From positions 1 through 20,464 of IMG/VR virus record IMGVR_UViG_3300020129_000286: a stretch of DNA of 20,464 nucleotides; one strand, 5' to 3'. The translations under genes were made by a program, and so were the position numbers. The DNA comes from a virus. This document shows, piece by piece, positions 10,758 to 19,466 of this stretch (positions within the stretch are counted from its first letter, which is position 1; the number at the start of each line of letters is the position of its first letter). The notes under the pieces were generated by a model, which did no database searches, was not told where the DNA came from, and worked only from the letters and a program-made list of their open reading frames with translations.

Positions 10758-10786
10758 TGGTCACCGTCCGTTGGCCGTATTACGGT
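10758..10786 (+). promoter_or_regulatory. candidate promoter for the modification/packaging operon
   Basis: TGGTCA (10758-10763) and TACGGT (10781-10786) are separated by 17 bases and weakly match SigA -35/-10 elements. Transcription would begin near 10793-10794, at the GTG proposed as the start of the next gene, implying a leaderless mRNA. No ribosome binding site is seen before that GTG, which agrees with this reading. Confidence 0.35.
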
Positions 10787-10793
10787 GCACCCT

Positions 10794-11051
10794 GTGTCAC
10801 CACCTCTCCGCTGCCCCGAGTGCCTGGCCTACGGCCTCGGCGGTCGTGGAGGGGCCGTGCTGATGGGTGCCCGCCCCTCCCGGTGCTGGCTGTGCAACCG
10901 GTGGCGCGTGCGGGTGGCTGCCAAGGTGGGCCAGGCTCTCCGGGCGGAGTACCCGGATGAGGCCGCTGAGCTGCGGAAACAGATCGGCCAGACGGTCTAC
11001 GACGAGCTGATGGAGATCTGGCGCGAGGAGCAGGCAGCGATGAGCGCATGA
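10794..11051 (+). CDS. 85-residue zinc-knuckle hypothetical protein
   Basis: The protein contains CPEC near its N-terminus and CWLC about 25 residues later, a zinc-ribbon layout. A helical, charged C-terminal half (AAELRKQIGQTVYDELMEIW) follows. No family recognised. Two GTG codons could start it, at 10785 and 10794. The second is chosen because it coincides with the predicted transcription start. It heads the block that includes the arginine decarboxylase and is coupled to it through an ATGA overlap, so it could be a regulator of that block, though nothing proves this. Confidence 0.65.
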   Translation: MSPPLRCPECLAYGLGGRGGAVLMGARPSRCWLCNRWRVRVAAKVGQALRAEYPDEAAELRKQIGQTVYDELMEIWREEQAAMSA

Positions 11052-11575
11052 GGTGGGTGCTGGGTAACCGCGTCCCGCGTGACTTCTTCCTGACCCAGGG
11101 CCGGGGCGAGAGCGACATCACCGTCCACGCCGGTTCATTCCATCTGGCCTTGCGGGACGCGGGCATCGAGATGGCGAACATCATGACCTACTCGTCGATC
11201 CTGCCGGCCATCGCGCGGGAGGTCCCTCGACCGCCGATCCGGCACGGCGAGGTGATGGAGTCGATCATGGCCGAGGCGACCTGCGAGAAGGACGAGACGT
11301 GCACTGCCGGGCTGGCGTTCGGCTGGCTGCACGGCCGCGCCTCGGGCGACGTGTGGGGCGGGCTGGTGACCGAGTACACCGGCTCGATGAACGAGGGCCT
11401 GGCGAAGGAGCACATGCGCGACATGCTGACCGAGCTGCACGTCAACGGCTACGAGCACTTCACCCTGGAGGGGATCCGCTGTCTGACCCAGTCCGTCACT
11501 CCCTCGAAGCGGTACGGCACCGCCGTCGTCGGCCTGTGCTTCACGAGCTACGAGTACCCGGTGATCGGGGCATGA
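11048..11575 (+). CDS. pyruvoyl-dependent arginine decarboxylase (AaxB-like)
   Basis: This 175-residue protein matches the pyruvoyl-dependent arginine decarboxylase family, which converts arginine to agmatine and CO2 using a pyruvoyl group made by self-cleavage. Visible landmarks are GRGESD (18-23), SFHLALRDAGIEMANI (30-45), the cleavage site Ser49-Ser50 within YSSILP (48-53), and GEVMESIMAEA (67-77). The Glu in the last segment fits the catalytic acid, and Asn44 aligns with the family's active-site Asn. TAGLAFGWLHG and GGLVTEY follow. The GxGESD and GG-EY segments fit the bacterial AaxB branch (Chlamydia) better than the archaeal enzyme. The length is slightly short of AaxB (about 195). Cleavage would give chains of about 49 and 126 residues. 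Substrate specificity cannot be proven from sequence. An arginine decarboxylase in a phage is unusual. Confidence 0.85.
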   Translation: MRWVLGNRVPRDFFLTQGRGESDITVHAGSFHLALRDAGIEMANIMTYSSILPAIAREVPRPPIRHGEVMESIMAEATCEKDETCTAGLAFGWLHGRASGDVWGGLVTEYTGSMNEGLAKEHMRDMLTELHVNGYEHFTLEGIRCLTQSVTPSKRYGTAVVGLCFTSYEYPVIGA

Positions 11576-12420
11576 GGGCGGCCAGTCTGGCGCGTGACCA
11601 GACCGTCGTCGTGATGGTCACCGTGTCCGAGCGACTGCCGATGCTGAACGCCTTCCTCCGCTCCCTCTCCGCACATGAGCCCGACCGGCCGATCTTCGTG
11701 CACATGCAGGGCGATGACCTGCACCGCGAGATCGAGTGGCCCCGCGGCCTGGCCCACGAGTACATGCACACGCCCGTCCGGCTGGGCTGCCACGCGGCCA
11801 GGGTCCGGGCTCTCCGCCGGCTGGCCAGCACGCCGTTCACCAGCTTCATCAACGTGGACGACGACGTGCTGCTGCTCGACGAGACGAACTGGCAGCCTGC
11901 GATCGACCGCACGATGGAGGAGCCGGGCATCGGGTTCGTGCTGACCGGCTGGGTGAACCACCTCAACCGGGTGCCACACGCCCGCGAGATTATGGCCGAC
12001 GAGTACATCCCGCAGGTGCTCGTCTACAACGGCGGCGGGATGGCGTACACCGAGCAGGTGGCCCGGCTCATCCGCGCCCTCGATCCCTGCCCTGCCCGCT
12101 TCGACGACATCTGGCCGATGACCGCCTACCTCGATGGGCGCCGCAGCTACCGCTACCGGGGCAGCTTGGCCGTGCACGCGATCATGCAGCGGGGCGGGAT
12201 GAACGCCTACATGAAGCAGGAGCCGCGGCCGCTGCTGTGCCAGCAGTGGATCGACTACCGCCCGATCTTCAACGCCAAGGTGGGGCTGGACACCGCGATC
12301 CCGCAGGACAGCGACATCCGCCCCTCCGCCCGCGTGCTGCACCGACAGCGCCGCCTCGAGCAGGGCTGGCCCGTCACCGGCCAGCACCGCACCGCAGTGC
12401 AGGCCGCGAGCCGCAGGTGA
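11572..12420 (+). CDS. GT-A fold glycosyltransferase (GT2-like)
   Basis: This 282-residue protein looks like a nucleotide-sugar glycosyltransferase. The N-terminus (VVVMVTVSERLPMLNAFLRSL, residues 12-32) matches the Rossmann-like start of GT-A enzymes. VDDDVLLLD (95-103) carries the DxD-type metal/nucleotide-sugar site. A mid-protein GGGMAYT loop and the acidic FDDIW segment near residue 181 fit the acceptor side and catalytic base region. No signal peptide or membrane helix is present, so it acts in the cytoplasm, on DNA, a phage protein or a metabolite. The ATG overlaps the decarboxylase stop, and the frame is open further upstream inside that gene. A second GT-like gene follows with a GTGA overlap. 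Confidence 0.8.
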   Translation: MRAASLARDQTVVVMVTVSERLPMLNAFLRSLSAHEPDRPIFVHMQGDDLHREIEWPRGLAHEYMHTPVRLGCHAARVRALRRLASTPFTSFINVDDDVLLLDETNWQPAIDRTMEEPGIGFVLTGWVNHLNRVPHAREIMADEYIPQVLVYNGGGMAYTEQVARLIRALDPCPARFDDIWPMTAYLDGRRSYRYRGSLAVHAIMQRGGMNAYMKQEPRPLLCQQWIDYRPIFNAKVGLDTAIPQDSDIRPSARVLHRQRRLEQGWPVTGQHRTAVQAASRR

Positions 12421-13145
12421 CCACCCGCCACCGCCTGCACGTGATCCATGTGCCGGGCGTGGACCCGATCAGGGACGCGGCTGTGGCCACCCTTCAGCAG
12501 GAGGCCGACGTCTGCCTGCACCCGGACACCGAGCGCCGCGGAGTGATGTGGAACTGGGTGACCGCGATGGACTGCATCGCCGGCCGAGTGGCCCGTCCCT
12601 CCCTCGATGCGGACTGGGCCGACTGGCACTTCGTGGTGCAGGACGACATGCGCCCGTATCCCCGCTGGGAGCAGGAGCTGAGCCGCGCCACGAAGTACAG
12701 CCCGGCCCTCGTGCTCGGCCTGTGCTGGATCGGTGAGCGGTGGAGCGAGGGCGTCGCCGCCAACCGGCCGTACATGACCGGGAAGTACATCCTCCGGGGC
12801 GGGGCGATCGCCTACCACCGGTCCGTCTTCCCCGCGCTCAGCCACTTCGCCCGGGGTATCAGCACCCTGACCACGTTCAAGCACGATGATGTGGCCGCCA
12901 GCCTGTGGTGCCAGCGGGTGGCCGGGTTCGACCCCGCGCTCACCTCCCGCTGCCTGTTCGAGAGCCTGATGACCCGCTCCCTCGTGAGCCACGGCCGTTA
13001 CCCGACCGGTGTTCACTCGATCGAGAACACCCCCGGCCCGGACTGGGCGACCATGCCCCGCTCGATCGAGGTGAACATCGACCGCTACCGATCGGACACG
13101 AACGTGGTGCTGGCGGAGATGAAGAAGAAGGGCTGGCGACCGTGA
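12417..13145 (+). CDS. second glycosyltransferase-like protein
   Basis: This 242-residue protein has a GT-A-like layout: a first strand LHVIHVPG (7-14), an Asn/Trp-rich helix, and the strand WHFVVQDDMRPYP (70-82), which holds the Asp-Asp pair where the DxD motif is expected. KHDDVAASLW (about 156-165) matches the acidic segment found after the acceptor loop in such enzymes. It shares little obvious sequence with the preceding GT, so a recent duplication is unlikely. The GTG start is set by the four-base overlap with the previous gene. The assignment as a glycosyltransferase is moderately sure; donor and acceptor are unknown. Confidence 0.65.
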   Translation: MTTRHRLHVIHVPGVDPIRDAAVATLQQEADVCLHPDTERRGVMWNWVTAMDCIAGRVARPSLDADWADWHFVVQDDMRPYPRWEQELSRATKYSPALVLGLCWIGERWSEGVAANRPYMTGKYILRGGAIAYHRSVFPALSHFARGISTLTTFKHDDVAASLWCQRVAGFDPALTSRCLFESLMTRSLVSHGRYPTGVHSIENTPGPDWATMPRSIEVNIDRYRSDTNVVLAEMKKKGWRP

Positions 13146-14071
13146 CCACGACACCCGTACCACGCAGCGACTCGCTGTTGGTCACCCGCGCGGACCTGGA
13201 CTCGTGGCTGGCCACGGCCCCCGACCTGGACTGGACGTGGGCCAAGACCTACGCCGACACCGCACCGCACAGCTACGTCGTGCACCCGCACAAACAGCTG
13301 GACCGGGAGGACTTCCGCCGAGCATCCAGAGTGATCCGCGCCTTCGGTGAGCCGGGCCGGTTCTACACCAACACCAACATCTATCTGGCCGATCACCCGA
13401 GCGGCAAGAAGTGGTGGTCGATGGACCGCCACCCGGACGACGGCGACCTGATCAACCAGGCCGACCTCGCCCTCGTGTACGGCCCGCAGGACGCGCCCGC
13501 CACCGCCCTCCGCCCGCCCGTCACGGCCACCCCGCCACCGCCCTCGGCCGACCGGTTCACCGCGATCGCGCCCAACTACGACGCCACCCGCCCGTCCGCG
13601 GACACCTCTGCCGGACAGACCCTGCGGTCGATCGTGGTCCGGCACTTCGGGGCGTACGCGCCGACCACCCTCGACGTGGGCTGCGGGACCGGCCGGCTGC
13701 TGGACCTGGGGATCACCGCGCCGGGCGTCTACATCGGGGTCGACGCCAGCCAGGGGATGCTCAACGAGCTGGTGCTCAAGCACCCCCGGCTGACCGCCCC
13801 ATCGGTCATCGCTGCCGATGCGAACGCCCTGCCGTGGCAGTACACGCCCCAGCCCGACCTGGTCGTCGCGCTGTTCGGCAGCGCGGACTACCTCGCCCCA
13901 CAAACCATCCGCGAGCTGGCCAAGCACGCCCGCTCGATGGCGATCTTCATGCACGACGCCGACCACCGCCCCGTCGCCTCGACCACGGCCACCGCGCGCG
14001 GACTGCTCGCCCACCACCGCGGCTATCAGCTCAAGCTGGCGAACTACGAGACGGTGGTGATCGAGAAGTGA
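13142..14071 (+). CDS. class I SAM methyltransferase with N-terminal extra domain
   Basis: This 309-residue protein has two parts. Residues 1-115 form a separate domain with WAKTYADTAPHSYVV, then FRRASRVIRAFGEPGRFY, then KKWWSMD and LINQADLALVYG. I have seen this pattern in phage proteins, but it has no function I can name. A Pro-rich linker (about 116-137) leads to a class I methyltransferase: motif I LDVGCGTG (177-184), the acidic residue after strand 2 in GVDAS (199-203), ADANALPW (225-232) and the strand-4 segment LVVALFGSADYL (240-251). No DPPY/NPPY motif of N6-adenine or N4-cytosine DNA methylases is seen, so the target may be a small molecule, sugar or protein. It is coupled to neighbours on both sides by GTGA overlaps. 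Confidence 0.85.
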   Translation: MTTTPVPRSDSLLVTRADLDSWLATAPDLDWTWAKTYADTAPHSYVVHPHKQLDREDFRRASRVIRAFGEPGRFYTNTNIYLADHPSGKKWWSMDRHPDDGDLINQADLALVYGPQDAPATALRPPVTATPPPPSADRFTAIAPNYDATRPSADTSAGQTLRSIVVRHFGAYAPTTLDVGCGTGRLLDLGITAPGVYIGVDASQGMLNELVLKHPRLTAPSVIAADANALPWQYTPQPDLVVALFGSADYLAPQTIRELAKHARSMAIFMHDADHRPVASTTATARGLLAHHRGYQLKLANYETVVIEK

Positions 14072-15288
14072 TCATCCAGCCGCGCACCAAGCCTGCCTCG
14101 ACCAGGTTGCTCCAGCACCGGCCGACCTTCGTGGGCCCGGCAAGGCCGCGGATCGTGACGAATCTGAGCGTCTACGACGCCGCCCTCGACCGGATCAGGT
14201 GGCTGTTCGACGAGTTCGACGACCACATCATGGTGTCCAACTCGGGCGGCAAGGACTCGACCGTGCTGCTCGAGCTGGCGGCCATCGTGAACAACGAGCG
14301 CGGCCGCAAGCGGGGCCCGCTCAAGGTGCACTGGCTGGACCAGGAGTGCGAGTTCCAGGCGACCGTGGACTACCAGCGCTACATCATGTACGAGCGCCCC
14401 GACATCGACTTCCGTTGGTACCAAATACCTTTCAAGCTGGAGAACTCCTCCAACATGGAGGACGAGTGGCTGTACGTCTGGGACCCGGAGCTTGAGCCCG
14501 ACCCGACCGCCGACCCGCCGCGGCCGCACGGCTGGGTGCGGGACAAGGAGCCCAACAGCATCCACGTCAACGACACCGGGGAGTGGGAGTTCTACTCGAT
14601 CCTCAAGACCCTCGGCACCCGCGAGTTCGAGGGCGCGATCCTCGACGGCATCCGGGCGGACGAGTCCCCGGCGCGGCGGCTGGCCAGCACGAGCAGTCCG
14701 ATGTACAAGTGGACGACCTGGAGCGCAGAGGACGTGGTGCCCAGCACGGGCAAGCACCTGTTCCGCTTCCACCCGATCTACGACTGGCTCTACCACGATG
14801 TCTGGAAGGCGATCCAGGACCACGGCTGGCGGTACAACGAGCACTACGAACACCTGTTCCAGCACGGCATCTCGATCAGGAACATGCGGGTTAGCAACTA
14901 CCACCACAAGTCGGCGCTGTCCTCCCTGACCTGGCTGCAGGAGGTCGAGCCCGACACCTGGGAGGCCGCGACCAAGCGCTTGAGTGGCATCAGCACCTGG
15001 GGCCACATCGGCAAGGACCAGATCCCCACCTCCCTGCCGTACATGTTCGCCAGCTGGGACGAGTACCTCGACCATCTGATCGAGAACCTGGTGACCCGCG
15101 AGGACCGGCGAGCCACCTACCGGCACCACTACGCGAAGCTGCTCAAGGCGTGCAGTCACCTGCCCAAGGAGGAGCTGGCCCAGGTGATGGTGACCGGCGT
15201 GCTGGGCAACGACTTCTACGGTGTGCACATCGGGAACTTCATGGTCAACCACCGGACCCGCAAGGACACGGAGTGGAGAGCCACATGA
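14068..15288 (+). CDS. ibrA-like: IbrA-like PP-loop protein (PAPS reductase family, DUF3440-like)
   Basis: This 406-residue protein has the PP-loop SGGKDS at residues 59-64, used by PAPS reductases and related ATP pyrophosphatases. The C-terminal half resembles the DUF3440 region of IbrA: FHPIYDWLYHDVWKAIQDHGWRYNEHYE, a following MRVSN, then EVEPDTWEAATKRLSGIS. IbrA is found on prophages and mobile elements beside IbrB, a ParB-like protein, exactly as here. There is no cysteine motif of the assimilatory reductase (ECGLH) at the C-terminus, so sulfate assimilation is unlikely. The true reaction is unknown. The GTG start at 14068 overlaps the upstream stop, and the frame is open much further back only as a shadow of the methyltransferase gene. 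Confidence 0.85.
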   Translation: MIIQPRTKPASTRLLQHRPTFVGPARPRIVTNLSVYDAALDRIRWLFDEFDDHIMVSNSGGKDSTVLLELAAIVNNERGRKRGPLKVHWLDQECEFQATVDYQRYIMYERPDIDFRWYQIPFKLENSSNMEDEWLYVWDPELEPDPTADPPRPHGWVRDKEPNSIHVNDTGEWEFYSILKTLGTREFEGAILDGIRADESPARRLASTSSPMYKWTTWSAEDVVPSTGKHLFRFHPIYDWLYHDVWKAIQDHGWRYNEHYEHLFQHGISIRNMRVSNYHHKSALSSLTWLQEVEPDTWEAATKRLSGISTWGHIGKDQIPTSLPYMFASWDEYLDHLIENLVTREDRRATYRHHYAKLLKACSHLPKEELAQVMVTGVLGNDFYGVHIGNFMVNHRTRKDTEWRAT

Positions 15289-16046
15289 CCAGCCCCGCCG
15301 GCAGAGCCGCGCACCCCAACGCAGGCCAGGTCCTGCACACGAACGGCGGCCCGCACTCTCGGACCAGCCCGCCCGACGCCACGGCCCGCTACCAGCCCGT
15401 CACGATCGCGGAGAAGGTGGACCACGCGAACCGGCTGGCCCGCGAGGCCGCGGCCCTGCTGCCGTGGAACGACCCGGTCGGCGTGGTCCAGTGGGTGCAC
15501 ATCAGCCGGATCCAGGCCAACGAATACAACCCGAACTCGGTGGCCAACCAGGAGATGAAGCTGCTGTACACGAGCATCGACGCTGACGGCTACACCCAGC
15601 CGGTGGTGGCGATCTGGGACCCGGACGCCGCCTCGGGAGACGGGCGCTACATCATCGTCGACGGCTTCCACCGCTGGACCGTGATGCGGAAGTACGCCGA
15701 CATCCGCGCCGCCCGCTCCGGTTACCTGCCGGTCGTGGTGCTCGACAAGCCGCCCGCGGACCGAATGGCCTCGACCATCCGGCACAACCGGGCACGCGGG
15801 AAGCACTCGGTCACCGGCATGGGCGCGCTCATCTTCGGGATGCTGAACGAGGGCCAGACCGACGAGCAGATCTGCAACAAGCTGGGCATGGAGCCGGGCG
15901 AGCTCTCCCGGCTCAAGCACATCACCGGCTACAGCAAGCTGTATGCCAACGCCACCCACTCGATGGTCGCCCAGACCAAGACCCAGATCGAGGCCAAGGC
16001 GGCCTACAAACAGGACCACCCCGATGAGGAGATACCGCCGTGGTGA
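15285..16046 (+). CDS. ibrB-like: IbrB-like ParB-domain protein
   Basis: This 253-residue protein is the expected partner of the preceding IbrA-like gene. After a low-complexity N-terminus (1-35) it has a ParB/Srx-type domain: NEYNPNSVANQEMKLL (79-94), DGYTQPVV (101-108), YIIVDGFHRW (122-131) and STIRHNRARGKHSV (163-176). The last two are strongly diagnostic of the IbrB branch. A helix-turn-helix-like region follows (DEQICNKLGMEPGELSRLKH). In E. coli IbrA and IbrB act together to control expression of immunoglobulin-binding proteins, so a regulatory or nucleotide-dependent DNA-binding role is the best guess. There is no ParA gene nearby. The start is coupled to the previous stop by ATGA. Confidence 0.87.
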   Translation: MTSPAGRAAHPNAGQVLHTNGGPHSRTSPPDATARYQPVTIAEKVDHANRLAREAAALLPWNDPVGVVQWVHISRIQANEYNPNSVANQEMKLLYTSIDADGYTQPVVAIWDPDAASGDGRYIIVDGFHRWTVMRKYADIRAARSGYLPVVVLDKPPADRMASTIRHNRARGKHSVTGMGALIFGMLNEGQTDEQICNKLGMEPGELSRLKHITGYSKLYANATHSMVAQTKTQIEAKAAYKQDHPDEEIPPW

Positions 16047-16651
16047 AAGCCCGCCCGCGCACGAACGCAACCGCCCCCTTATCGGCCGGCGAGCTGGTCA
16101 CGGTGCCGATCGACTCGATCAAGCCGTACTGGCGGAACCCGCGGCGGGTGACCGAGGACGCCGTCAACCAGCTGGTCGAGAGCATCACCCGGTACGGCTA
16201 CCAGCAGCCGATCGTCACCGACAAAGACAGGGTGATCATCGTCGGCCACACCCGCTACGCGGCCCTTCGGAGGATGAAGGTCACCGACGTGCCGATCAGG
16301 ATCGACACCAGCCTGACCCAGGAGCAGGTGAAGCAGTACCGGCTGATCGACAACAAGGTCGGAGAGCTGACCTTCTGGGACTACGAGGCACTCGTCGAGG
16401 AGATCGCGGACCTCGACCAGTCCCTGATCCACTCGTTCTTCCCGGAGGTGGACACCAAGCGGCCGATCGTGGACGTCGACCTGGAGACGATGAACCGGGA
16501 GTGGGACAAGGTGGAGACGGGCGTGGGGTTCACCTGCCCGAAGTGCTACCACTCGTGGGAGGTGCAGGTCACCCGCGACGATCTGCAGGCGGGCCTGATC
16601 CCCGCGCCCACCCCGACCACCACACCCGCCACCGAGGACGCGACGGCATGA
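16040..16651 (+). CDS. ParB-domain protein, first of a tandem pair
   Basis: This 203-residue protein carries the ParB N-terminal domain of the type often fused to, or encoded beside, phage DNA methylases: IKPYWRNPRR (27-36), VESITRYGYQQPIV (46-59), VIIVGHTRYAAL (65-76) and the trailing KQYRLIDNKVGELTFWDYEAL. The C-terminal part has one zinc-knuckle half-site, Cys166-x2-Cys169 (CPKC), and a low-complexity Pro/Thr tail. No other cysteine is present, so a complete site would need a partner chain. Two adjacent GTG codons (16040 and 16043) can start it. 16040 has the better spacing from GAGGAGA. The next gene encodes a clear paralog, coupled by ATGA. Confidence 0.85.
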   Translation: MVKARPRTNATAPLSAGELVTVPIDSIKPYWRNPRRVTEDAVNQLVESITRYGYQQPIVTDKDRVIIVGHTRYAALRRMKVTDVPIRIDTSLTQEQVKQYRLIDNKVGELTFWDYEALVEEIADLDQSLIHSFFPEVDTKRPIVDVDLETMNREWDKVETGVGFTCPKCYHSWEVQVTRDDLQAGLIPAPTPTTTPATEDATA

Positions 16652-17274
16652 GCATCCAGATCGCACCGCCCGAGACCCGCACTCTCGCGCTCGCGGACAT
16701 CAAACCCTACTTCCGCAACCCTCGGAAGATCCCGCAGAACGCCATCGACCAGGTCCGCTCCTCGATCGAACGCTATGGATACCAGCAGTCGATCGTGGTG
16801 GACCCCGACAACGTGGTGGTAGTCGGGCACACGAGACTCCTTGCGCTGCAACAACTTCCCGACCCGCCCCAACAGGTCGAGGTGTACGTCACGCACCTGC
16901 CGGCGGACAAGGTGCGGGAGTACCGGCTGGTCGACAACCGGACCAGCGAGCTGAGCCAGTGGGACCCCTCGGCCCTGGTGATGGAGCTGCGCGAGTTCGA
17001 GACCAGCCTGCTGGAGGAGTTCTTCCCCGAGGTCGACCTGGAGATATCGGCCATCAACGACGTGCTGGTCAACAGCAACGACGTGGACGCCGCGAACAAG
17101 AAGCTGCTGGACGTGAAGCTGGACAACCCGCTGCTGGTCACCCTCGTCGAGTGCCCGGCCTGCTTCGAGCGGTTCGAGGTCAGCACCGCCTCCCTGCCAG
17201 GACTCAGCCGCGCCGACCTCGCGACCCTGACGGCAGCCCAGCTCGAGCCGGCAGACGATGGCGAGACCGGGTAG
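16648..17274 (+). CDS. ParB-domain protein, second of a tandem pair
   Basis: This 208-residue protein is a paralog of the preceding one: IKPYFRNPRK (18-27), SSIERYGYQQSIV (38-50), VVVVGHTRLLAL (56-67), REYRLVDNRTSELSQWDPSAL, and FFPEVD at the same relative place. It also has a single Cys169-x2-Cys172 (CPAC) near the C-terminus, and no other cysteine. The middle (INDVLVNSNDVDAANKKLL) differs from its partner. The GHTR residues suggest ParB-type nucleotide or DNA contact; whether it binds CTP, cleaves DNA or acts on a modified base is unknown. It overlaps the terminase small subunit gene by 17 bases, linking the island to packaging. Confidence 0.85.
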   Translation: MSIQIAPPETRTLALADIKPYFRNPRKIPQNAIDQVRSSIERYGYQQSIVVDPDNVVVVGHTRLLALQQLPDPPQQVEVYVTHLPADKVREYRLVDNRTSELSQWDPSALVMELREFETSLLEEFFPEVDLEISAINDVLVNSNDVDAANKKLLDVKLDNPLLVTLVECPACFERFEVSTASLPGLSRADLATLTAAQLEPADDGETG

Positions 17275-17797
17275 CAAGCCGCCCGCCTCCGGGAAGCCCG
17301 CCCTCGTGGTGCATCGGAACATCAACGACGCACGGGTGAAGCGGGAGGAGTCGCGGCGCAGCGAAGCGCTCAGCCTGCGGATGGCCGGGCTGACCTACAG
17401 CCAGATAGCCGAGCGGCTGGAGATCAGCGAGACCGCCGCCAGCGAGCTGATCGGCCGCACCCTCGAACACGGCAACGCGCCCGAGGTGGATGAGCTGCGG
17501 GCACTGGAGAACGCGCGGCTGGACCGCAGCCAGGCCTCGATCTGGTCGAGAGTGCTGGAGGGCGACACCCAGGCGATCGACGCGTTTCTGCGGATCAGCC
17601 AGCGCCGGGCGCGGCTCAACGGGATGGACGCGCCGGTCCGGGTGGACCTCTCCGTGAGTGTCAGGCAGGAGATGGAGAGCGCGCTGACCGCCCTCGAAGC
17701 CGTTGTGCTGAACACCGCGACCACGGCGGCCGGCATTCGCCCGTACCAGGTGGTCGACAGCGACGACGATCCGAGCGACCGTGACTCAGACGACTGA
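17258..17797 (+). CDS. terS: terminase small subunit
   Basis: This 179-residue protein fits the phage terminase small subunit, which recognises the packaging site and loads the large subunit. A helix-turn-helix lies near residues 38-66 (LSLRMAGLTYSQIAERL and onward). The conserved central helices read LDRSQASIWSRVLEGDTQAIDAFLRISQRRARLNGMDAP, typical of actinophage small terminases. The acidic tail (DSDDDPSDRDSDD) may contact the large subunit. It starts at an ATG inside the ParB gene and overlaps the large subunit gene by 17 bases. Confidence 0.85.
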   Translation: MARPGSKPPASGKPALVVHRNINDARVKREESRRSEALSLRMAGLTYSQIAERLEISETAASELIGRTLEHGNAPEVDELRALENARLDRSQASIWSRVLEGDTQAIDAFLRISQRRARLNGMDAPVRVDLSVSVRQEMESALTALEAVVLNTATTAAGIRPYQVVDSDDDPSDRDSDD

Positions 17798-19466
17798 CCC
17801 GTCGGAGCTGATCGCCCAGCTGCGCGAGGCCGCCTCCCGCGCGCGGAACGACGACGAGGTGCGGCAGGTCACCAGCAAGATCGCGCAGCTCACCCGCGCC
17901 TACCGGATCGCGCACGGCATCGGGATACCCAGCAGCCCGGCGGACCAGGCCCGCGAGATCGACCCCGGCTACGTCGTGCGGCCGCACCTGCGCTACCTCT
18001 CGGACCGGCTCGCCCAGGCGGTCAAGGACGTGGAGCAGGGCCAGAACCGGATGCTCGCGGTGTCCATGCCGCCGCGGGCCGGCAAGAGCACCCTGCTCTC
18101 GATCTACAGCCCGCTGTGGCTGCTCCGGCGGCACCCGGAGTGGAAGATCGTGCTGGCCTCCCACGACGGCGGCCTGACGACCGTGTGGGCCCGCAGCATC
18201 CGCCGGATGATCGAGGACCGGCCGTCCCTCGGGATCGCGCTATCGAGAGACGGCGGAGCCGGTAGCCAGTGGGAGACCGTCGAGGGCGGCGGGATGTTCT
18301 CGACCTCGGTACGCGGCACGCTGACCGGCCGCGGTGCCCGCGTGCTGATCATCGACGACCCGGTCAAGGGCTTCGTCGAGGCGCACAGCCAGGCGACCAG
18401 GCAATCCCTCTGGGACTGGTGGCTCTCGGTCGCCCAGACCCGGCTCGAGCCGCCGTTCCTCTGCCTGGTGGTGATGACCCGCTGGCACGAGGACGACTTC
18501 GTGGGCCGGCTGTTCAGCCCGGACCACGAGGGCGATCCGCAACTGTGGGAGCGGATCAGTCTGCCCGCCATCGCGGACCGGCCGGACGATGTGCTGCACC
18601 GCACCGAAGGAATGCCGCTGCTGTCCCCGCTGGTGGCCGAGTCGACCGAGCAGGCCTCGATCAGGTGGGCCGAGGTGCGCCGCTCGGTCGGCACCTACAC
18701 CTTCTCGGCCATGTACCAGCAGCGACCGGCGCCGGCGAAGGGCGCGATCTTCGACTCGGGCTGGTGGCGGTTCTGGACGATCGACCCGGAGAAGGCCACC
18801 CTCGACGGCCGGGTGCTGCACCTCGACCCCTCGTCCCTGATCAACGCGCGGTGGCTGGACAGCTGGGACTGCAACTTCGAGTCCTCCGACGACTCGGTCG
18901 GCGGCTGGGTGGTCGGCCAGCGGTGGGTGCGCTTCGGCGCGAACAGGTTCCTGATCGCGCAGCAGCGCAAGCGCTGGACGTTCACCCAGACCCTGGCCGC
19001 GATGGACAAGTGGGCGCAGACCGACAACCCCGTCGGGTCTCCGTGCGGGCACCTCGTGCACGAGCGGCTGATCGAGAAGAAGGCCAACGGCGCGGCCATC
19101 ATCAACGTGCTGCAGGACCGGATATCGGGCCTGAAGCCGATCATCCCGACGGCCTCGAAGGAGTCGCGCGCCCGCGCTATCACGCCCGAGGTGGAGTCCG
19201 GCAACGTCTACCTGCCGCACCCCTCGGACCCGGGCAACGAGTGGGTCCAGGACCTCCTCTCGGAATTGCGCAACTTCCCGCACGACGCCTTCGACGACCA
19301 GGTGGACAGCCTGACCCAGGCCCTCTCGAATCTGCGCGACACCGGCCGCGGAATGGTGACCGTGCCCGGCCACAGCAATGGCACGCCGGGCCGGCAGATA
19401 CCGCAGTCCAGGACAGCCGCGGCATTCACGGATATGAACAGGCATCGCGGGTTCGGCCGCAACTGA
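17781..19466 (+). CDS. terL: terminase large subunit (ATPase/nuclease)
   Basis: This 561-residue protein is the DNA-packaging motor. Walker A is PPRAGKST at residues 97-104. Walker B is VLIIDD at 188-193, with the second Asp likely acting as the catalytic carboxylate. A coupling segment, VMTRWHEDD, follows near residue 232. The C-terminal nuclease half begins near WLDSWDCNFESSDDS (about 358-372), where the first acidic residue of the RNase H-like site is expected, and ends with a DAFDDQVDSL-type acidic motif near residue 510. The length is normal for a complete subunit. The GTG start lies inside the small-subunit gene. It is followed by a 299-base region and not directly by a portal gene. Confidence 0.95.
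   Translation: MTQTTDPSELIAQLREAASRARNDDEVRQVTSKIAQLTRAYRIAHGIGIPSSPADQAREIDPGYVVRPHLRYLSDRLAQAVKDVEQGQNRMLAVSMPPRAGKSTLLSIYSPLWLLRRHPEWKIVLASHDGGLTTVWARSIRRMIEDRPSLGIALSRDGGAGSQWETVEGGGMFSTSVRGTLTGRGARVLIIDDPVKGFVEAHSQATRQSLWDWWLSVAQTRLEPPFLCLVVMTRWHEDDFVGRLFSPDHEGDPQLWERISLPAIADRPDDVLHRTEGMPLLSPLVAESTEQASIRWAEVRRSVGTYTFSAMYQQRPAPAKGAIFDSGWWRFWTIDPEKATLDGRVLHLDPSSLINARWLDSWDCNFESSDDSVGGWVVGQRWVRFGANRFLIAQQRKRWTFTQTLAAMDKWAQTDNPVGSPCGHLVHERLIEKKANGAAIINVLQDRISGLKPIIPTASKESRARAITPEVESGNVYLPHPSDPGNEWVQDLLSELRNFPHDAFDDQVDSLTQALSNLRDTGRGMVTVPGHSNGTPGRQIPQSRTAAAFTDMNRHRGFGRN

Follow-up and report, generated by a model that had tools for sequence, protein, structure and literature searches.

A phage-encoded pyruvoyl-dependent arginine decarboxylase and its recurrence in a viral PP-loop/ParB/glycosyltransferase/methyltransferase module

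The stretch of viral DNA analysed here, hereafter the window, is a 20,464-base IMG/VR record that belongs to a distant relative of the Rogerhendrixvirus phages of Microbacterium and, judged from this phage kinship alone, to a virus of soil-type bacteria. On the forward strand, positions 11048-11575 hold an open reading frame with an ATG start that encodes the 175-residue proenzyme of a pyruvoyl-dependent arginine decarboxylase (PvlArgDC). This identity, proposed in the original prediction from the letters of the DNA, is borne out by profile search: the protein matches PF01862 over residues 9-165 (E 1.8e-27, 96.7 bits against a cut-off of 22.7). This is its sole match in the Pfam scan, in which the AdoMet_dc domain PF02675 was absent, and the protein is thus not a member of the SpeDA type. 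The NCBIfam model TIGR00286 also matches (E 6.8e-14, 51.9 bits), below its equivalog cut-off of 106.95, which is likewise missed by the Nesterenkonia protein (39.1 bits) and by the viral copies L088 (38.3) and L181 (52.2). The PvlArgDC of Methanocaldococcus jannaschii, whose structure is solved, is matched on sequence with E 4e-4 and about 24% identity. Moreover, the start and stop codons overlap both neighbouring genes as ATGA, and the GC3 of 0.93 is the same as that of those genes.

The predicted self-cleavage site is the Ser49-Ser50 pair (codons at 11192-11197, forward strand) within the segment YSSILP (residues 48-53), and it aligns with Ser52-Ser53 of the M. jannaschii enzyme. Cleavage would leave a beta chain of residues 1-49 and an alpha chain of residues 50-175, with Ser50 predicted to become the pyruvoyl group. 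In the same alignment Asn44 (11177-11179, forward strand) corresponds to M. jannaschii Asn47, and Glu109 (11372-11374, forward strand) to Glu109, a residue that facilitates cleavage in this family (PMC2720952). The serine pair, Asn44 and Glu109 are invariant in 35 aligned relatives, 3 other viral copies included; the intact cleavage pair and the active-site Asn and Glu that had been read from the sequence are indeed there. An AlphaFold2 monomer model, computed from an input alignment of 35 sequences, has a pLDDT of 96 and a pTM of 0.88 and adopts the alpha/beta sandwich of the family. Specifically, it matches 1n2m in Foldseek (TM 0.76/0.86, E 3e-13) and 2qqd in VIA-align (Z 20.5, rmsd 1.8 Å over 152 residues); histidine decarboxylase 1pya reaches a VIA-align Z of only 6.9, and no AdoMetDC chain is among the VIA-align matches. 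The gene is a real and apparently intact PvlArgDC gene, whose product is predicted from sequence and model to cleave itself and to decarboxylate its substrate, and we consider it very probable that the enzyme is active.

The genes around it lie on the same strand. Directly upstream, a small Cys-rich protein is encoded at 10785-11051, sharing the ATGA overlap at 11048, and a Rogerhendrixvirus homologue (32%) stands at the same place. Downstream, GT1 (11572-12420) is a GT-A type glycosyltransferase-like protein with a DDD motif, 36% identical to the product of L181:8096-8842 and with homologues in other PP-loop modules, and GT2 (12417-13145) is a homologue of annotated Microbacterium phage glycosyltransferases (36% to gene 156 of Leaf and gene 153 of Rasputia). 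In the Pfam scan neither window protein has a match of its own, and the L181 homologue of GT1 passes the cut-off of Glycos_transf_2 (PF00535). A PDB sequence search with GT2 gave nothing useful, and the structure prediction of GT1 (pLDDT 53) was left unused. Next comes a methyltransferase (13142-14071, PF13649) with a conserved N-terminal domain that occurs in many modules. This unnamed domain of about 100 residues, with the pattern W.(W/F)AK(T/S)(Y/F)A...PH.Y, is fused to the methyltransferase in the window (13142-13600) and free-standing in other phages, and a free-standing copy (L090:16431-16907) has no Pfam family. The row continues with a PP-loop protein of the PAPS reductase/CysD-like kind carrying the motif SGGKDST (14068-15288, PF01507, E 3.6e-15) and three ParB-like genes, of which the first (15285-16046) matches phrog_2159 with E 3e-65 and is 54% identical to its L090 counterpart, the second (16040-16651) matches PF02195 with E 4.3e-8, and the third (16648-17274), with no Pfam match of its own, resembles the ParB-like genes of L090. 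A small DNA-binding protein, by its HTH/sigma-r4 matches and position a probable terminase small subunit (17258-17797), and the terminase large subunit (17781-19466; phrog_38, E 3e-83; 73% DNA identity to Microbacterium phages) complete it. The gene order agrees with the earlier description of the decarboxylase as the head of a glycosyltransferase and methyltransferase block.

In the Rogerhendrixvirus phages, one genome end carries the small Cys-rich protein, variable glycosyltransferases, the GT2 homologue, an acetyltransferase, the methyltransferase and the PP-loop protein, and the other end three ParB-like genes, the DNA-binding protein and the terminase; in Hendrix the methyltransferase precedes the acetyltransferase. 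PvlArgDC is absent from these phages. Compared with them, the window has PvlArgDC and GT1 in the variable slot and is missing the acetyltransferase. Such variation of the accessory genes beside the terminase between relatives is what would be expected if PvlArgDC were a recently captured, functionless gene in a hot spot. However, the gene keeps all catalytic residues, is translationally coupled on both sides and matches its neighbours in GC3, and the PvlArgDC genes of the viral contigs L181 and L182 are under purifying selection, as their dN/dS is 0.13, so that we give practically no credence to this reading.

As for its origin, cellular relatives that share 50-60% identity with the window protein come from Nesterenkonia (Actinomycetota), from DPANN archaea, and from Bacteroidales and Spirochaetota. 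The nearest kin is Nesterenkonia (58%), to which the phage protein is sister with support of 99/92 in one tree and 100/94 in another, and the gene was probably acquired from an actinobacterial relative. In Nesterenkonia's order PvlArgDC is rare (13 of 297 genomes). In keeping with the tree placement, two residues of the region encoded at 11273-11284 are shared with Nesterenkonia: Glu76, a Val in nearly all relatives, is Glu in one of the two Nesterenkonia proteins and Gln in the other, and Cys79 is common to both. A match in a Parabacteroides 'plasmid' looks chromosomal and was set aside.

The broad bacterial/DPANN clade, whose signature is GESD...HAGSxH, offers a view of the likely substrate. 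An arginase/agmatinase-family gene is present in 26 of the 46 clade loci, mostly directly downstream of PvlArgDC, and a deoxyhypusine synthase family gene in 16, mostly adjacent. The agmatinase-family gene of locus L034 scores above the TIGR01230 agmatinase equivalog cut-off and that of PF00491, the deoxyhypusine synthase family gene of L015 passes PF01916, and the PvlArgDC gene of L011 is accompanied by genes for AdoMetDC and spermidine synthase. Neither an agmatinase-family nor a deoxyhypusine synthase family gene lies within the Nesterenkonia loci; an arginase-family gene is present in Nesterenkonia genomes. Since agmatinase and deoxyhypusine synthase family genes adjoin clade members, arginine is the likely substrate and the clade would decarboxylate it for polyamine synthesis; with good confidence, we take arginine to be the main substrate of the window enzyme as well. 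Activity on a different amino acid, or on one that is already linked to a base or a sugar, would suit the modification-type neighbours and the TIGR00286 score below the equivalog cut-off. It would also suit the replacement of M. jannaschii Asp35, which we take to be a substrate-contacting residue, by His32 in the window protein and, invariantly, across the whole clade. The same His, however, is found in cellular relatives that adjoin agmatinase; it was therefore dropped as a mark of a new substrate, and a different substrate appears improbable. An acid-resistance or pH-shifting role, like that of chlamydial AaxB in arginine/agmatine exchange, draws on membership of the same enzyme family (PF01862; PMC2720952) and on the GRGESD motif, taken in the original prediction to suggest the AaxB branch. 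It is highly improbable: the neighbours of the relatives are biosynthetic, with the agmatinase-family gene in more than half of the clade loci, unlike an exchange system, and Pfam scans recognised no porin- or antiporter-like gene in the 20-kb window, itself part of a phage genome.

The gene row downstream of PvlArgDC is widespread among viruses. A scan of IMG/VR for the PP-loop protein gave 502 confirmed viral loci, and in most of the 80 that were fetched and annotated with profiles built for this analysis the PP-loop gene is followed by ParB1, often together with the methyltransferase N-domain, GT1- or GT2-type glycosyltransferases, further ParB-like genes and the terminase. In 76 homologues of the PP-loop protein the motif SGGKDS is conserved at 100%; no column has Cys in more than 50 of the 76, and five homologues are entirely without Cys. 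As the protein lacks a conserved cysteine, it is unlikely to transfer sulfur in the manner of PAPS reductase or DndC, and the name 'PAPS reductase' for the product of 14068-15288 is probably misleading. The PP-loop protein would rather perform an adenylation followed by attack of a nucleophile other than sulfur. PvlArgDC is found in none of the 80 fetched loci, and the module therefore normally works without it. Pfam matches among the 131 non-core ORFs in the vicinity of PP-loop genes comprise five GNAT acetyltransferases, one AdoMet_dc gene and one saccharopine-dehydrogenase-like gene.

Viral PvlArgDC genes were found by profile-guided scans from three alignments (A4, A8 and A9), which yielded 15 IMG/VR viral contigs, the window and 14 further, in about nine lineages; a single-protein search of the IMG/VR viral contigs and one with a sequence pair (A3) gave none. 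Four of these contigs, representing three of the nine lineages, have the gene in the module. In the window the order is PvlArgDC, GT1, GT2, methyltransferase, PP-loop, ParB; in L090 it is PvlArgDC, PP-loop, ParB; and in L181 and L182 it is GT1, PP-loop, PvlArgDC, ParB, that is, the decarboxylase is wedged between the core genes PP-loop and ParB1. The reading frames of these module copies overlap their neighbours or are closely spaced. The AU test rejects a grouping of the window copy with those of L181/L182 in one clade (p=0.002). For the window and L090, whose terminases share 25% identity, the same test is marginal (p=0.037 and 0.049, and 0.057 in an earlier tree), L090 being on a long branch. 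PvlArgDC was recruited into the module at least twice independently, and the firm claim is limited to two because the test of L090 against the window is borderline. By pattern counts, PP-loop loci make up about 0.02% of IMG/VR contigs; as a rough estimate, made without a formal test, three of nine lineages in the module is far from chance, even with the PP-loop share underestimated tenfold.

Most viral PvlArgDC lineages are located outside the PP-loop module. At L183:6374-7976 the gene has as its neighbour a member of the deoxyhypusine synthase family (PF01916, E 1e-39), and the two possibly belong to a homospermidine pathway. At L089:406-3083 it follows directly after two genes, one ATP-grasp-like (weak GARS_A match) and the other of LPG_synthase_C type (PF09924), a set that could serve to couple an amino acid or an amine to some acceptor. 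Near-identical copies occur in L184, L185, L186 and L189, viral contigs between 59 and 349 kb long and some of them very large, where none of the profiled neighbour genes is present.

Other amine-forming genes also enter the module. In a family search of 86 records, L169 and L174 alone had AdoMet_dc genes, in both cases inside it. The AdoMetDC-fold protein of L169, with the segment TTSHIVLHTWD, lacks a proline that is diagnostic of true AdoMetDC (PMC10407285), and that of L174 has it. These genes lend weaker support, as the viral AdoMetDC-fold loci checked are almost all located away from the module: one of 79 adjoins a PP-loop gene, and it is a near-copy of L169. In addition, a saccharopine-dehydrogenase-like gene directly upstream of a PP-loop gene (L165:8817-9983) resembles carboxynorspermidine synthase, well below the cut-off. 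Elsewhere, L233:6237-8357 and L253:3154-5244 carry consecutive genes resembling those for deoxyhypusine synthase and agmatinase, with one of AdoMetDC fold, apparently a viral polyamine operon; PMC9992855 reports one phage agmatinase only.

Taken together, PvlArgDC would cleave itself at Ser49-Ser50 and turn arginine into agmatine in the infected cell, and agmatine or an amine derived from it would be the likeliest small molecule to serve as substrate for the PP-loop/ParB/glycosyltransferase/methyltransferase module, which would probably decorate phage DNA. In the weakest step, the PP-loop enzyme would adenylate the target, to be attacked by an amine rather than by sulfur. We put this explanation as a whole, a functional PvlArgDC feeding its operon, probably for DNA decoration, at slightly under an even chance. 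What favours use of the amine by the operon is the recurrence of PvlArgDC in the module, together with the AdoMetDC-fold and carboxynorspermidine-synthase-like genes there; whether the product goes to the module rather than serving as a general polyamine is evenly balanced. DNA as the target of the module is a tentative proposal. Lysidine synthetase is a PP-loop enzyme that uses lysine, agmatidine synthetase uses agmatine, and both act on tRNA. By analogy, the module might join groups of the agmatine, putrescine or polyamine type, perhaps along with sugars, to DNA by a reaction of this kind, with pyruvoyl decarboxylases of two unrelated folds independently recruited as amine source, a version that we regard as rather unlikely in its full detail. 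The modification role that the original prediction considered worth testing is thus strengthened, as a hypothesis, by the recurrent recruitment of PvlArgDC and other amine-forming genes into one module.

A serious competitor, to which we assign a lesser but considerable probability, is an ordinary auxiliary polyamine gene: host agmatinase or deiminase would turn agmatine into putrescine and spermidine for replication, translation or the charge balance of packaged DNA, and the operon would be a mere location. Viral polyamine genes are common (PMC9992855). Such a role also fits the gene neighbours of the cellular clade, which are agmatinase, deoxyhypusine synthase and, at L011, spermidine synthase together with AdoMetDC, as well as the arginase-family gene of Nesterenkonia genomes and the gene pair of L183. 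The placement of three of nine viral lineages in one rare module, with the L181/L182 copy between core genes, argues against it, as does the lack of an arginase/agmatinase-family gene in the window and the three Rogerhendrixvirus genomes searched. Other polyamine genes of the phage may be out of view, because the window, itself a fragment, covers 20 kb, against about 95 kb in the relatives of this phage. The repeated entry of PvlArgDC into one conserved, widespread operon is a concrete biochemical clue that this operon may consume an amine; the clue opens a so far unexplained phage gene cluster to tests by nucleoside mass spectrometry, and it suggests that viruses may use amines of the agmatine kind as a chemical building block.

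Several known systems share parts of this picture. PP-loop and ParB-like proteins occur in DNA-modification systems, as DndC/DndB and DpdB (PMC10853773, PMC12839542). The pairing is common to Dnd/Ssp phosphorothioation, with DndC and the ParB-family DndB, and to the window module, whereas conserved cysteines are missing from the phage PP-loop protein and no DndA, DndD or DndE was recognised in the window. Phages also ligate amines to DNA bases through CmoY, and in phage DNA glycine is amide-ligated to carboxymethylcytosine, with ParB genes nearby (PMC12783734). CmoA/CmoX/CmoY (PMC12783734), with ParB-domain genes near CmoX, and the putrescinylthymine of phiW-14 (PMC5977210) place an amine or amino acid on a DNA base; the window shows no recognisable homologue of CmoX or CmoY and has a PP-loop protein and glycosyltransferases instead. 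Chlamydial AaxB, a homologue of the M. jannaschii enzyme, is an arginine decarboxylase that cleaves itself (PMC2720952); it works with a porin and an antiporter (aaxA, aaxC), neither of which was recognised in the window. The AdoMetDC-fold pyruvoyl arginine and ornithine decarboxylases of pelagiphage HTVC201P and other phages (PMC9992855, PMC10407285) are also phage-encoded basic-amino-acid decarboxylases, of a fold unrelated to that of the window enzyme. Li et al. 2023 treat the M. jannaschii enzyme as non-homologous to them, and the available part of that article (PMC9992855) holds no mention of a viral enzyme of PvlArgDC fold. That fold has no match in BFVD or PHROGs, and tblastn with the window protein found none in the 50,697 phage records of the phage GenBank collection, yet about nine IMG/VR viral lineages carry it. 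The association of PvlArgDC with the module appears undescribed in the literature searched. The M. jannaschii enzyme (1n2m, 1mt1, 2qqd) shares fold, Ser-Ser pair, Asn47 and Glu109 with the window enzyme, which is the longer of the two and has His32 in place of Asp35; the Nesterenkonia/DPANN/Bacteroidales/Spirochaetota clade shares all signature residues, and its members are cellular. The window copy, phage-encoded and in a modification-like operon, is a known family in a new setting.
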